A DNA stretch of 41,570 nt, taken from positions 1-41,570 of the IMG/VR virus record IMGVR_UViG_3300048919_000255; one strand, 5' to 3'. Shown here piece after piece: positions 18,552 through 35,819 of the stretch. Position numbers and translations under genes: made by a program. The DNA comes from a virus. The notes beneath the pieces are model-generated. The model was not told the origin of the DNA. It did not search any database and saw nothing but the letters and a program-made list of their open reading frames with translations. Within the stretch, counting starts at the first letter, position 1; each line of letters begins with the position of its first letter.

Positions 18552-19885
18552 GTGGGACGCGAATATGATGTGGCGATGAAGCTTGCGGCGAACCTTGACC
18601 AAAGCTTTTTTGGTGCGTTCGATAAGGCCATTCAAAAAGTGAATGGTCTTGAGAACAGCTTTAAAGAACTTAAAAATATCCAGATGCCTACTGGAGCGAT
18701 TACCAATTTGCAGCAAGAAGTTGGGCAGTTAAATACTAAGCTGCAAAGCGTTAATGCCAACCGGGTTGGGGAAAACGTCTTTAAGCCCCTAAAGGACGAC
18801 ATTAGGGACGTGAAGACAGAGCTTACACGGCTCCAGTCCATGCGTTTGTCGGGAGATATAACCCGTGCGCTGGAGGTTAATGTTCAGGGGCTTGAACACA
18901 AGCTTAAAGCCCTTGGGCATTTGAGGATCGGCGCGAAAGTATTCGAACCGATGATGGCAGACGCAAGAGCAGTTGAGGCGCAAATACGTGTCATTCAGTC
19001 CATGCGCATCACGGGTGATATCGTCAAAGATATCCGTGAAGATTTGAAGAAGCTGGAAAGTGAATTTAAAGATATCAAGCGAATAAACGGCCCCAAAGAC
19101 GTTTTCCAGAACATGATTAGCGAATTGAAAATTGTTATTCCAGATCTGCGAGAGATGAAGAAGCTTCTTGCAGACATAGCCCGCATTCGCATGCCTTCAA
19201 ACCAATTCGGAAACGACATTGAAGCGTATGTAAGGCAGATTAAAGAATTAGAGAAGCGAATGAGAGATATCCAACGCATTAACGGTCCTTCGGGCGGTGG
19301 TGGCGGTGGATCTGGCGGAGATGATTCAGGGGGCGGCGGTACATTACTTGCCGCTGGTGGAGCTGGGATGATGGCGGGAGCTGCCGTGGCTGCGGGCGGC
19401 TTTTTTGCGTTTAAATATGCGGACGAATACCAGAAGGCCATGCTTCAAATCCAAGCCAGTACAGGGCAGACAGAAGCGCAGATGAAGGGCATGAAAGACA
19501 TTGCCAAGAATCTGTACAATCAGAAGCTAGGTGAGGATTGGAACGATCTAGCGCTTGTCGTCGGTAAGGCGAAAAACGTCTTGAAGCAAACCGGGCCTGA
19601 ACTAGAAAAATCAGCACGAGGCGCGATTGTCCTTCGAGACACCTTCGAAAATCTGGATGTTGATGAGTCTATTAAGACCGTCGATACCATGATGAAAAAC
19701 TTTGGTATCACATCGGAGCAGGCTTACAATTTGCTTGCACAGGGCGCACAGAAGGGGCTGGACAAGTCCGGCGAATTGTTGGACAGCGCCAATGAATATT
19801 CGGCCTACTTTGCAAAATTAGGATTCAGCGCAGAAGGTATGTTCGATATTTTTTCTGCAGGTCTGGATGCCGGGGCCTTTAACCT
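18552..19885 (+). CDS. Tape measure protein, exon 1 (residues 1-445)
   Basis: Starts at GTG 18552, just after the chaperone extension. The N-terminal ~230 residues are helical heptad-like repeats with recurring 'LKxIxxxMRxxGDI' units. Then comes a Gly-rich linker (SGGGGGGSGGDDSGGGG), a hydrophobic segment LLAAGGAGMMAGAAVAAGG, and the TP901-type tape measure core (AMLQIQASTGQTEAQMKGMK). The coding sense ends at ...AGLDAGAFN-CT and resumes at 20149: joining the exons gives GAFNLDKVGDGIKEFGIR, the expected core sequence. Exon lengths total 3288 nt (1095 aa), divisible by three. Unspliced reading would end at 19949 with an unrelated tail. Confidence 0.9.
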
Positions 19886-20148
19886 TTTTATTAGGGCTTT
19901 ATGGCGGCGACGCCATACCGAAACCTCTCTAATTCATGGGAAACCCTAACGTTGAGACGAGGGAAATCATGAGCGAAGTCCGTGATATACGGGAACGTGC
20001 AACGACTATCGGTGAGAAACCGAGTACACGCAAGCGCGTGGAAATGGGAGGGGACTCTTAGGAGTTCTTGATATAGTCTGATCTGCATGGAAACATGCAG
20101 CTGCCTTTAGTGGCGGGTAAGGCGTAGCGAGCCTTGCTGAACAGTATG
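19886..20148 (+). ncRNA. Group I intron in the tape measure gene (263 nt, no endonuclease ORF)
   Basis: Core elements are visible. P1: exon CCT with GGG (19894-19896), U-G pair at the 5' splice site. P2: ATGGCG-GCGA-CGCCAT (19901-19916). P7: AACGACTA (20001-20008) with TAGTC (20074-20078), in the classic GATATAGTC context. P7.1/7.2-like hairpins CGGTGAGAAACCG and CACGC-AAGC-GCGTG. P9: CTGCATG-GAAA-CATGCAG (20083-20100). The last base is G (20148). P10: the first seven bases of exon 2 (TGATAAA) pair with intron TTTATTA (19887-19893). Splicing restores the tape measure frame. Too short for a homing endonuclease gene. Confidence 0.9.
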
Positions 20149-22102
20149 TGATAAAGTCGGTGACGGTATTAAGGAATTTGGTATCCGTACAAAAGACGGA
20201 TCTAAATCATCATTAGAGGCATACAAATCCATCGGGCTCGGCGGTAAAGAAATGACAGCAGCATTCGCCAAAGGCGGTAAGACCGCACAGGAAGCATTCC
20301 TGAAAACCGTGAAGGCTATCGAAGCAGTGAAGGACCCGGTTTTGAAGAATGCTGTTTCTGTGCAGTTGTTTGGTACCCAAGCCGAAGATTTGGAAGCTCG
20401 CGTAATCAAGTCTTATGGCAATGTTAAAAAGCAGTTTGACAAGACCAAGAACAGCATTGACGAGATGGCAAAAATAAAATATAGCAGCATGGGCGATGCG
20501 TTTAAGGGGATCGGACGGCAGCTGCTTACAAGCATAATTATTCCTGTCTCTAACCTACTGTTGCCAGCCTTCAATAAGTTCAGTAACTGGTTTAATCAAA
20601 CAGGGCCGATGATAAGTAAATTCTTTTCTGAGGTTGGGACTGGGTTAAGCCGAGTCGGTAAAATCATCAAAAAAAGTGGTCAGCTACTTGAAAACACCTG
20701 GAACAACACTGGTTATTACACCGCTGCGGTTGGGATAACCAATATCGGTAAGGAAATAGGACTGAGTGAGGAGAATGCCTACAAGCTATCCGGTGCTATT
20801 ACTGATATAACTGATCGACTGTCTGGATTAAAGCCCTATGTTGATATTCTTAAAGGATTAGGCGATGTAGCTTACAACGTCACAATTGGCACTGGTGATA
20901 TATCAGGAGTACAACAAATCAATAAAGGTTTGCAGTCCATTGGATTCAGCCCGGATCAGGCTATTCAAATATCGAATAGTGCAGTTGATATATTCGATAA
21001 TATACGAGGCAAGGCGGAAGTATTTGTTGCAAGTCTCAAGCCGATCATGGGCGATATTAAAGGATATTTTAAAGAGGCCTTCACATTTGGGACTGATTTG
21101 GATTTTAGAGAGATTGTAGACAGTGTGAGTGATCTTCGCAAATCTATCACGCCTGTAATAGAATCTATTGCCTCTGGGATCGGCCCAGCATTGCATCCTG
21201 TCACTTCTCTGCTTGTTCCACTTATGAAGGTTGGAAAGCAAGCGTTCAATGCGATAATCCCTTTGGTTATGAAACTATCATCTTCTATTTCTTCCAAGCT
21301 TGGACCTGTGTTTACGTCAGTTTTTGGATATTTGACGAAAACTTTGTTGCCTCAGGTCAGTTCTGTACTGGCTGCATGGTTGCCTAAGATCGGAGCGCTG
21401 TTTAGCAAGGTCGGTGGGCTGATTATGGCAATATACAACACAGGTATTGCGCCTGTAATTGATAGTTTGGTCGGTATATTCAAATGGGCATGGCCTGTTA
21501 TCACTGCGGCTGTGACAGGTGCAATTAATATACTCAAGCCTGTTATCGGCGGAATTATTGATGTACTGGGCGGTGTAATTGACTTTTTGACAGGGGTTTT
21601 CACAGGGAATTGGGATCTGGCATGGCAGGGTATAAAAGAGGTCGCTGTCGGTATATGGGATAGTATCACAGGTGCTGTGAAAGCGGCATTTAACAATGTC
21701 ATCGCAATTATCAATTCAGCCATCCAGAAAGTAAACAGCTTTAGTTTCACTATGCCCGATTTACTCGGAGGCGAGACAATAGGAAGTTTAGGAATACCTG
21801 AAATTCCAATGCTTGCAGACGGAGATATTACCAACCGTCCGTCGATCATGGGTGAGGCGGGCTGGGAAGCCGCCATTCCTATTAACAATAAGCCTAGATC
21901 CATGAATCTACTGGAAAAAACAAATAGACTTATGGGCTACAATCCAAGCAGTGGCGGCGATAACTTGAACCTTAACTTTAATATTGTAATCCAAGGAAAT
22001 GCGGACGAAGAAGTAATGACGCAGGCAGTTAAGGCGGCAGAACCTTCTTTCCGTCAGCAGTATAAGCAAATGCAACGGCAAGATGCGAGGACAAGCCTAT
22101 GA
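20149..22102 (+). CDS. Tape measure protein, exon 2 (residues 445-1095)
   Basis: Continues from the Leu codon split by the intron: DKVGDGIKEFGIRTKDGSKS, then MTAAFAKGGKTAQEAFLKTV and VQLFGTQAEDLEARVI, standard TP901 core sequence. Hydrophobic repeats in the C-terminal half (e.g. ITAAVTGAINILKPVIGGII) are typical of tape measures. The end, GEAGWEAAIPINNKPRSMNL, then VIQGNADEEVMTQAV, is the usual C-terminal 'tail completion' region. An ORF caller would start this exon at an internal ATG (20252); that start is an artefact of the intron. Confidence 0.9.
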
Positions 22103-31353: not shown

Positions 31354-31391
31354 AATCTCTGCTGACAGTAAGGTCAGCGGAGATTATTTTG
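31354..31391 (+). terminator. Strong terminator
   Basis: AATCTCTGCTGAC pairs with GTCAGCGGAGATT over a 6-nt loop (one mismatch-type G-T), then TATTTTGTTTT. Ends the small membrane peptide transcript. Confidence 0.8.
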
Positions 31392-34175: not shown

Positions 34176-35027
34176 TTGAGGTTTTCTGAAAGGATAGGGA
34201 GAACATCTGCTAAGGTTGATATACAAATTGAATCAATGGACGACGATCTTAGAGTAGGTCTTTGGAATTGTTTTCAGGAATTTGCTCTTGGTAATTATAA
34301 AACTACTTTTGCTTCTCAAAGTTTATTGATGCCTCTATTCAGACAACTATGGAGAGACTTTTTCAAGTTGCCTATGGATACTATTCCAGACTTTTTTTCA
34401 GCCCTAGAAATATTTTTGAAGGATAAATTTTTTAAATTGGAATGGTTCTCGGTATATGATTTTATCGAATTTACTATTCAAGCATATTCATTGCCTAAAA
34501 CCTTAGCTAAGCATTTAACTATATCATGCAATCATATTTTGGAAAGGGAGTTATCCGCCTACAGAATAGTTGGAACTGAAATTACACAAATCACAGATAA
34601 AAATGAAGTAAAAGAAATTGAGGAAGGATTGGCGAAATCAGCCATACTTCCTTTGAAATCAGTCAGTATTCATTTGACCACAGCCCTTTCCCTGCTCTCA
34701 GATAGAAAGTCTCCTGACTATAGGAATTCAATCAAGGAATCTATCTCAGCTGTCGAGTCCATTGCTCAAATCATATCAGGAGAGCACAAAGCTGAACTTG
34801 GAAAAGCATTGAAAATACTATCAGATAAAATTGGATTGCACGGTGGTTTAAAGGCTGGATTTTCTTCAATTTATGGTTACACAAGTGACGAGGGTGGTAT
34901 TCGTCACGCAATGTCAGATGAAAAAGAAATATGCTTTGAAGATGCGAAATACATGCTCGTTGCTTGCTCTGCTTTTGTAAATTACTTGATCGTGAAGGCA
35001 GATAAGGCGGGGATCGTTTTGGGATAA
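34176..35027 (+). CDS. AbiJ-NTD4-type abortive infection protein candidate
   Basis: 283 aa from TTG 34176 with GGAGGAATC upstream. It opens with RFSERIGRTSAKVDIQIESM and DDDLRVGLWNCFQEF, the start typical of AbiJ-NTD4 domains. The C-terminal half has the associated helical domain: YRNSIKESISAVESIAQIIS, LGKALKILSDKIGLHGGLKA, then YGYTSDEGGIRHAMSDE and YMLVACSAFVNYLIVK, with an R-H pair (GGIRHA) that could be a HEPN-like nuclease motif. AbiJ-type proteins act in abortive infection. AT-rich and monocistronic. Function inferred by family resemblance; not tested. Confidence 0.75.
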   Translation: MRFSERIGRTSAKVDIQIESMDDDLRVGLWNCFQEFALGNYKTTFASQSLLMPLFRQLWRDFFKLPMDTIPDFFSALEIFLKDKFFKLEWFSVYDFIEFTIQAYSLPKTLAKHLTISCNHILERELSAYRIVGTEITQITDKNEVKEIEEGLAKSAILPLKSVSIHLTTALSLLSDRKSPDYRNSIKESISAVESIAQIISGEHKAELGKALKILSDKIGLHGGLKAGFSSIYGYTSDEGGIRHAMSDEKEICFEDAKYMLVACSAFVNYLIVKADKAGIVLG

Positions 35028-35059
35028 CAGAATCGTTATATGAAGCTAATTGGAAAAGT

Positions 35060-35088
35060 TTGCAGTCTATTTAACTTTGTGATATATT
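35060..35088 (+). promoter_or_regulatory. Candidate promoter of the structured RNA
   Basis: TTGCAG, 17-bp spacer, TATATT, with an upstream TG making an extended -10 (TGATATATT). Transcription would start near 35095, just before the first hairpin. Confidence 0.45.
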
Positions 35089-35094
35089 GTCTTC

Positions 35095-35366
35095 AATACG
35101 ATTTATTAATTATCTCTGCTGACATTAGTCAAGCGGAGAACAGGTTACTTGAATGAGACGGTAGGATCTCTCTGTACTGAGTTATAGCCGTCAAAACGAG
35201 CGGTAGTATTTCTCTTAGGTGAGTCATGGCCGCTACAAGTGTGATGCATAGTTTTTTAAAAAAAACGAAAAAAACTCGTCGTCCTCTCTATTCCTTCAAA
35301 AAGGAAAGAAGATAGCCAGTTTTAAAGTTTCTTTAAAAAACATGCACACTTGTAGCGGCCTTTTTG
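35095..35366 (+). ncRNA. Structured RNA with tandem hairpins and mutually exclusive terminator stem
   Basis: Between the AbiJ-like and LytTR-like genes lie: a hairpin at 35113-35139; two homologous hairpins 42 bases apart, GACGG...CCGTC (35157-35192) and AGCGG...CCGCT (35199-35234), sharing the core GGTAGnATnTCTCT then GAGTnATnGCCG; and a perfect 16-bp stem GGCCGCTACAAGTGTG (35228-35243) / 35345-35360, followed by TTTTT. The CCGCT arm of hairpin 2 is also the start of the long stem, so both cannot form together. This is switch- or attenuator-like, or an independent small RNA. I do not recognise a known riboswitch class. Confidence 0.6.
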
Positions 35367-35394
35367 CGTTCTCATATTCTTTCAAGGAGGTGAT

Positions 35395-35493
35395 TTGGAC
35401 GAGCACAGGGTATACGAACATACGTACATACATCTACAGGAAATTGTAGAGTATGGAATCACACCTCTGTGGTGCATACAAGTACAGAGGTGA
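35395..35493 (+). CDS. Possible 32-aa peptide upstream of the LytTR-like gene
   Basis: AAGGAGGTGA is followed four bases later by TTG 35395; the frame reads DEHRVYEHTYIHLQEIVEYG then ITPLWCIQVQR and stops in the ribosome site of the next gene. Spacing is short and the start is non-ATG, so expression is uncertain. It may be a leader peptide coupling translation to the LytTR-like gene. Confidence 0.4.
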   Translation: MDEHRVYEHTYIHLQEIVEYGITPLWCIQVQR

Positions 35494-35498
35494 TATTT

Positions 35499-35819
35499 AT
35501 GGACATTCTAGTGGTGAATCTGAAAACGGGCACACCAAAGGTCATACAGTCAAAGCAGGTGGTTTATCTTGAGTCAAGGGAGGGGAAAACTATAATACAC
35601 ACCAAGACATCTGAGTACCGACCCGCATATGCTTTACGTGACTTTGCTCCTATATTATTCGCAGAAGGCTTTGAAGCACTCGAAAAATCCAACCTTACCA
35701 ACATGACGGAGGTTAGGGATTATGATTTGTCGAGTAAAAAGGCATTTTTCGACAAATCGAGAAAGGGGAAGCATGTGAGTGTATCTCGGAGAAATAAAGA
35801 GAAATTGGAGGGACTATAG
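35499..35819 (+). CDS. LytTR-like DNA-binding protein, 106 aa
   Basis: ATG 35499 with AGAGGTGAT upstream. KQVVYLESREGKTIIHTKTS near residues 20-40, then ALRDFAPILFAEGFEALEKS, NLTNMTEVRDYDLSSKKAFF and HVSVSRRNKEKLEGL, follows the LytTR plan ('i-yiE----k--ihT---ey----l--f---L---gF--~-kS--vN-~-v--yd-----~f-----~~vSRR'). There is no receiver domain, so it is a stand-alone LytTR-type regulator. The structured RNA upstream may control it. Confidence 0.65.
   Translation: MDILVVNLKTGTPKVIQSKQVVYLESREGKTIIHTKTSEYRPAYALRDFAPILFAEGFEALEKSNLTNMTEVRDYDLSSKKAFFDKSRKGKHVSVSRRNKEKLEGL

Follow-up and report, generated by a model that had tools for sequence, protein, structure and literature searches.

RAT antiterminators of the BglG/SacY type are imperfect hairpins which overlap the 5′ arm of a terminator and are stabilised by a factor. 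RNAs located near the promoters of mobile-element or exopolysaccharide operons, such as conAn of pLS20 (PMC8955417), canT of Tn916 (PMC11658703), the put RNA of HK022, and EAR, govern the passage of terminators; they are processive and act on distant terminators. ANTAR targets consist of two hairpins with hexanucleotide loops carrying A1 and G4 (PMC3369931). EGeRS1 of the pLS20-family plasmids is a GC-rich region of 400-600 bp, without a sigma-A promoter, which lies before establishment operons (PMC8708921). It hinders transcription from upstream, by a mechanism described as unknown in PMC8708921. Gene control in Gram-positive mobile elements is poorly understood, and the leader family reported here, which brings its own promoter and terminator, offers a compact case that can be tested.

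The window (the whole stretch of DNA analysed, 41,570 nt) is the virus record IMGVR_UViG_3300048919_000255. Its terminase, portal, sheath, tape measure, and integrase genes indicate a contractile-tailed temperate phage, whose closest named relatives are among Paenibacillus larvae phages. The leader element is located between an AbiJ_NTD4 gene and a LytTR-domain gene, and the locus has the following features.

34176-35027: AbiJ_NTD4 protein; PADLOC candidate defence PDC-S32, 361 bits
35060-35088, + strand: sigma-A type promoter (TTGCAG, 17-nt spacer, TATATT, TG extended -10), seen in the sequence; scan match at 35059-35088
35095-35365, + strand: leader RNA of ~270 nt, from the predicted start to the end of the U run, with homologues in three phages; the region folds at -97.6 kcal/mol vs. 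-64.5 for shuffles (z = -7.98)
35114-35138, + strand: hairpin P0 (CUCUGCUGACAUUAGUCAAGCGGAG), the part common with plasmid leaders; model R3 72.2 bits, E 2e-12, the window being in the training set
35157-35192, + strand: hairpin H1, 36 nt; model R1 52.4 bits (in the training set), alignments A2 and A8
35199-35234, + strand: 36-nt hairpin H2, which resembles an antiterminator and whose 3′ arm is also the 5′ arm of the terminator; model R1 58 bits (in the training set)
35228-35360, + strand: long terminator hairpin with a perfect 16-bp outer stem (35228-35243 / 35345-35360) and a folded interior
35361-35365, + strand: U run of the intrinsic terminator; T5-T6 at the matching place in all four phages
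35366-35379, + strand: conserved tail GCGTTCTCATATTC directly 3′ of the U run; GCGTTCT-NN-TATT in all four phages
35384-35393, + strand: Shine-Dalgarno AAGGAGGTGA of the 32-codon ORF, seen in the sequence
35395-35493, + strand: short ORF of 32 codons with a TTG start, running into the LytTR ribosome-binding site; a Shine-Dalgarno and a weak start codon are at the same position in phages G002 and L152
35457-35497, + strand: inverted repeat (35457-35470 / 35484-35497) which would mask the LytTR ribosome-binding site
35499-35819, + strand: LytTR DNA-binding-domain protein, the presumed controlled gene; 106 aa counted from ATG, PF04397 40.8 bits

The closest idea among the known systems is EGeRS1, which likewise recurs as a structured region ahead of a number of different operons within a single mobile element. 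However, the Paenibacillus leaders are only ~150-270 nt long, have their own promoter and an intrinsic terminator, and are also present in phages; the window element itself, at ~270 nt and with a conserved promoter, is outside the 400-600 bp, promoterless definition. It resembles conAn, canT, put, and EAR as a promoter-near RNA that may govern terminator passage, but in the window-type leaders the terminator is internal, one per operon. As in ANTAR targets, there is a tandem pair of hairpins, the second of which competes with an intrinsic terminator. The loops of the window hairpins (UGUACU and UUAGGU) and the 4-nt loop of the homologue in phage G001 do not follow the A1/G4 hexaloop rule, however, and the internal loop motif differs. 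H2 is similar to RAT as an imperfect hairpin overlapping the 5′ arm of the terminator, but no RAT sequence similarity was recognised in the window element. No description of the Paenibacillus P0 leader family was found in the open-access literature, and within that literature the family is undescribed.

The initial annotation had listed a promoter just upstream, tandem homologous 36-nt hairpins, and a perfect 16-bp stem ending in T5, and all of these are present at the positions given above. Its claim that both hairpins share their 3′ arm with the terminator holds for H2 (35228-35234), whereas H1 has no overlap. The element is also larger than first listed, with the addition of P0 and of the conserved tail and Shine-Dalgarno (35366-35393). 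In this AT-rich region, the promoter consensus match alone is not above chance (4 found vs. 6.6 expected). The -10 region is kept in G002 and L152, and the -10 and the initial transcribed sequence are also conserved on plasmids. Transcription is expected to start near 35095. The window element has no match in Rfam 15 at the gathering threshold, and the E-value mode (E up to 10) yielded nothing but miRNA-like chance matches of the long hairpin and some other weak ones, which bears out the earlier remark that no known riboswitch class was recognised.

H1 and H2 are homologous to each other, and two of the differences between them, in the basal stem, are compensatory. They share the motif UAG.AU.UCUC...GAGU.AU, which has a conserved asymmetric internal loop. 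A short terminator hairpin with 101 nt left unpaired in its loop was considered and ruled out; the loop itself folds, producing the single long hairpin 35228-35360 with a predicted stability of -55.4 kcal/mol, compared with -11.6 kcal/mol for H2. In thermodynamic prediction, therefore, H2 wins only if something holds it. Across the nascent prefixes that were folded, H2 was predicted to be kept until 35352 and lost at 35360, once the 16-bp stem is complete; that is, it would persist until the final 8 nt of the terminator are made. An outer stem, in which the tail pairs with GAAU-GAGA-CG before H1, was seen by eye in the window and G002. It was not adopted because the pairing is partial in L152 and absent in G001. 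A coding origin of the tail (V-x-A-F-L-R-S-x-I-L-like, with third-position changes) was rejected, as in the window this frame stays open over just 18 codons.

A two-sided hairpin pattern search of IMG/VR led to two more phages, G001 (L003) and G002 (L004/L007), and the fourth phage, L152, was reached via a shared ATPase gene. The element is thus carried by three phages besides the window. A relaxed hairpin pattern gave over 100 matches, mostly by chance, and pairing of a terminator with the hairpin 3′ arm was observed only in true members. Matches of Lak phages to H1 were taken as chance. Four P. larvae phages that share the ATPase gene (Lily, PBL1c, Diva, and Xenia) do not carry the element. 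When 24 window proteins were compared with G001 and G002, few matched: the tape-measure and protease segments, AbiJ, the repressor, and the ATPase. The terminase, portal, major head, and sheath proteins of the window have no detectable match in these two phages.

The initial annotation had suggested a choice between termination and antitermination, and the homologues support this. They preserve both the terminator pairs and the hairpin which uses the 5′ arm of the terminator. In the 11-bp terminator core of the four phages, 100% of the cells are paired and four pairs are changed on both sides; the covariation score was reached by none of 500 shuffles, and slid controls were 25-59% paired. H2 is also present in G001 and G002. 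L152 is without the top of H2 and has a short AGCGGU..GCCGCU form, and the number of full hairpin copies differs among the four phages, but the overlap with the terminator arm is always kept. The covariation of H1/H2 pairs alone is not significant (112/500 shuffles), and their conservation is mostly in sequence.

The neighbouring genes change. Upstream of the element there is an AbiJ-like gene in two phages, an HTH gene in G001, and, in L152, a gene resembling a deoxyribosyltransferase, on a weak Pfam match below the threshold. Downstream there are LytTR, a 25-codon ORF, a 6-codon ORF, and a 62-aa ORF in the four phages, the last without a Pfam match. G002 and L152 have no real gene downstream, only the ORFs of 25 or 6 codons and a further hairpin resembling a terminator. 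In all four phages, a Shine-Dalgarno is present at a near-fixed distance past the terminator. As a query, AbiJ matched only G002, L012 (whose contig stops short of the element), and one Clostridiales MAG, and the LytTR protein found no viral relative. The AbiJ-like gene is not a component of the leader element.

The L152 leader gave a weak blastn match (E 0.1), to intergenic DNA of two Paenibacillus plasmids only. At these plasmid sites, the -10, the AATACGA start, and P0 are again present, and there is no H1/H2 motif. Seven copies were used to build the model R2 of this 5′ module (promoter, AATACGA, and P0), and it detected additional ones on plasmids, with E from 1e-10 to 1e-5 and some weaker. 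With E allowed up to 1, the P. peoriae HS311 plasmid has 11 copies, P. polymyxa pSb31l and P. lautus pAZOPL1 have six each, and pSb31s has two. The refined model R3 at E ≤ 0.01 gave the same plasmid counts, and its 28 matches in total comprise 25 on the four plasmids and three in phages. Two W04 copies outside the training set were recovered at 41.6 and 41.8 bits. There was no R3 match in 20 control genomes; these belong to the same phylum as a Clostridiales MAG, and they gauge chance matches rather than distribution. P. polymyxa pSC2 (510 kb) has no R3 match and pPPM1a has one borderline match of 31 bits. The P0 of G001 is too divergent to be detected with R2 or R3.

In the alignment of 24 sequences, which was fitted to the model and somewhat favours its pairing statistics, eight of the ten P0 pairs are changed on both sides and 96.2% of the cells are paired (0/500 shuffles). 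The cells changed on both sides number 29, compared with 8.3 ± 3.3 in shuffles, and the slid controls drop to 49-58% paired. Judged from this pattern of substitutions, it is very probable that P0 forms a genuine hairpin in RNA. The window has the -10, the AUUAC/AAUACGA start, and a P0 above background, and belongs to the family.

On the three large plasmids, 20 of the 22 copies examined are 118-254 nt upstream of a gene on the same strand (dnaN, LPD1, a ThiF operon, and others). The two exceptions are copy 91587, with ~400 nt between it and the annotated gene that comes next, and copy 79910 of pAZOPL1, where a group II intron (Rfam RF02004, L182 1779-1954) intervenes before the next gene. Most plasmid leaders have a second hairpin of varying sequence after P0 and finish in a terminator; in many of them an outer stem, with a T run of its own, encloses an inner hairpin that also has one. 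Predicted folds of the leaders are more stable than those of shuffles (mean z -5.2). Nine of the 23 leaders tested have a competing hairpin of 4 bp or more, where 2.9 would be expected. Several are near-duplicates, and an antiterminator is not proved to be general in the family.

In the family, a promoter is followed by an AUUAC/AAUACGA start and P0, next usually by another hairpin (P1), and then by a terminator, a Shine-Dalgarno, and a gene. The repetition of promoter, leader terminator, Shine-Dalgarno, and gene is the layout of an attenuator regulon. Comparison between phages and plasmids shows the leader family, its P0 hairpin, the terminator stem, and the placement before genes. In the window, the promoter is followed by an intrinsic terminator ahead of a gene, and an alternative structure which would exclude the terminator is present in all four phage members; in the wider set, nine of 23 leaders have one. 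It is moderately likely that the window element is a promoter-proximal transcription attenuator, a phage-borne and elaborated member of a leader family of mobile elements, which gates the LytTR gene.

We infer that the element is transcribed and switches as follows. RNA polymerase would start near 35095 and produce P0, H1, and H2, and H2 would occupy the 5′ arm of the terminator. Once the polymerase has made the 3′ arm (35345-35360), the 16-bp terminator, being much more stable, would oust H2, and transcription would halt in the T run, leaving an RNA of ~270 nt. If H2, or the whole P0-H1-H2 leader, were held by a putative factor, the polymerase would continue into the short ORF and the LytTR gene.

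The leader is found up to eleven times per plasmid and also in phages that otherwise have little in common, which implies that scattered mobile-DNA operons are under one shared control. The element appears to be an on/off device common to mobile DNA, and P0 may be the site where a common signal or factor acts. It is possible, at a fairly low probability, that P0 and its neighbouring hairpin are a cis-acting RNA site which reprograms RNA polymerase or recruits one common factor. The leader-terminated plasmid operons and the phage genes would then be opened together at a defined moment, such as the entry into a new cell, as an antitermination regulon shared by Paenibacillus phages and plasmids.

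The main rival to the attenuator is a trans-acting sRNA: the product would be the terminated RNA of ~270 nt, directed at an mRNA, a host protein, or an incoming element, while the terminator would do no more than form its 3′ end and read-through would be incidental. Its own promoter and strong terminator are conserved though both neighbours change, nothing substantial is downstream in G002 and L152, and the conservation of H1/H2 in sequence rather than by covariation is expected of a binding site. However, the plasmid copies stand immediately upstream of different operons, the Shine-Dalgarno follows the terminator at its near-fixed distance in the phages, and the H2/terminator overlap is preserved. 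With these observations, a trans-acting sRNA is rather unlikely.

Ribosome-mediated control, also among the main rivals, is quite unlikely. It supposes a translated short ORF after P0 (in the window TTG AAT GAG ... TTA TAG, 12 codons, ending inside H1), whose stalling or completion picks H2 or the terminator. In-frame TTG-AAT ORFs of 12, 9, and 10 codons in the window, G002, and L152 have the same end point in H1. P0 is followed by a purine-rich segment, and ORFs of 3-20 codons are found there in many plasmid leaders. The starts are mostly TTG, however, the spacing is loose and the codons are not conserved; certain plasmid leaders are without such an ORF, and chance alone predicts short ORFs.

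A ligand-binding riboswitch or a single-protein aptamer formed by the tandem H1/H2 motif is very unlikely. The two near-identical copies with the asymmetric internal loop suggest it, and dual-hairpin antiterminators have a known precedent in ANTAR (PMC3369931), but the varying number of full copies, the missing H2 top in L152, the lack of a common metabolic theme among downstream genes, and the Rfam search giving nothing beyond chance at E up to 10 all argue against it. The earlier suggestion of a type III toxin-antitoxin RNA adjoining the Abi gene, which drew on the order of promoter, tandem ~36-nt repeats, terminator, and gene beside an AbiJ-like neighbour, is extremely unlikely, since no ToxN/CptN/TenpN-like gene follows (only LytTR, the 62-aa ORF, or short ORFs), the hairpin copy number and the neighbours differ among homologues, and no Rfam type III antitoxin matches.

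Under the attenuator reading, LytTR is the presumed target, and the promoter scan found no promoter-like site between the terminator and this gene. The inverted repeat 35457-35497 is within the 32-codon ORF preceding LytTR. Its position there, together with the expected masking of the ribosome-binding site of LytTR, suggests translational coupling of the two.

Elsewhere in the window, a group I intron (RF00028, 82.4 bits) at 19876-20100 interrupts the tape-measure gene (18552-19949 and 20252-22102). The P0 stem sequence CTCTGCTGAC..GTCAGCGGAG recurs in simple terminator-like hairpins, at 31357-31384 in the window and at 941-970 and 2304-2333 in L152.
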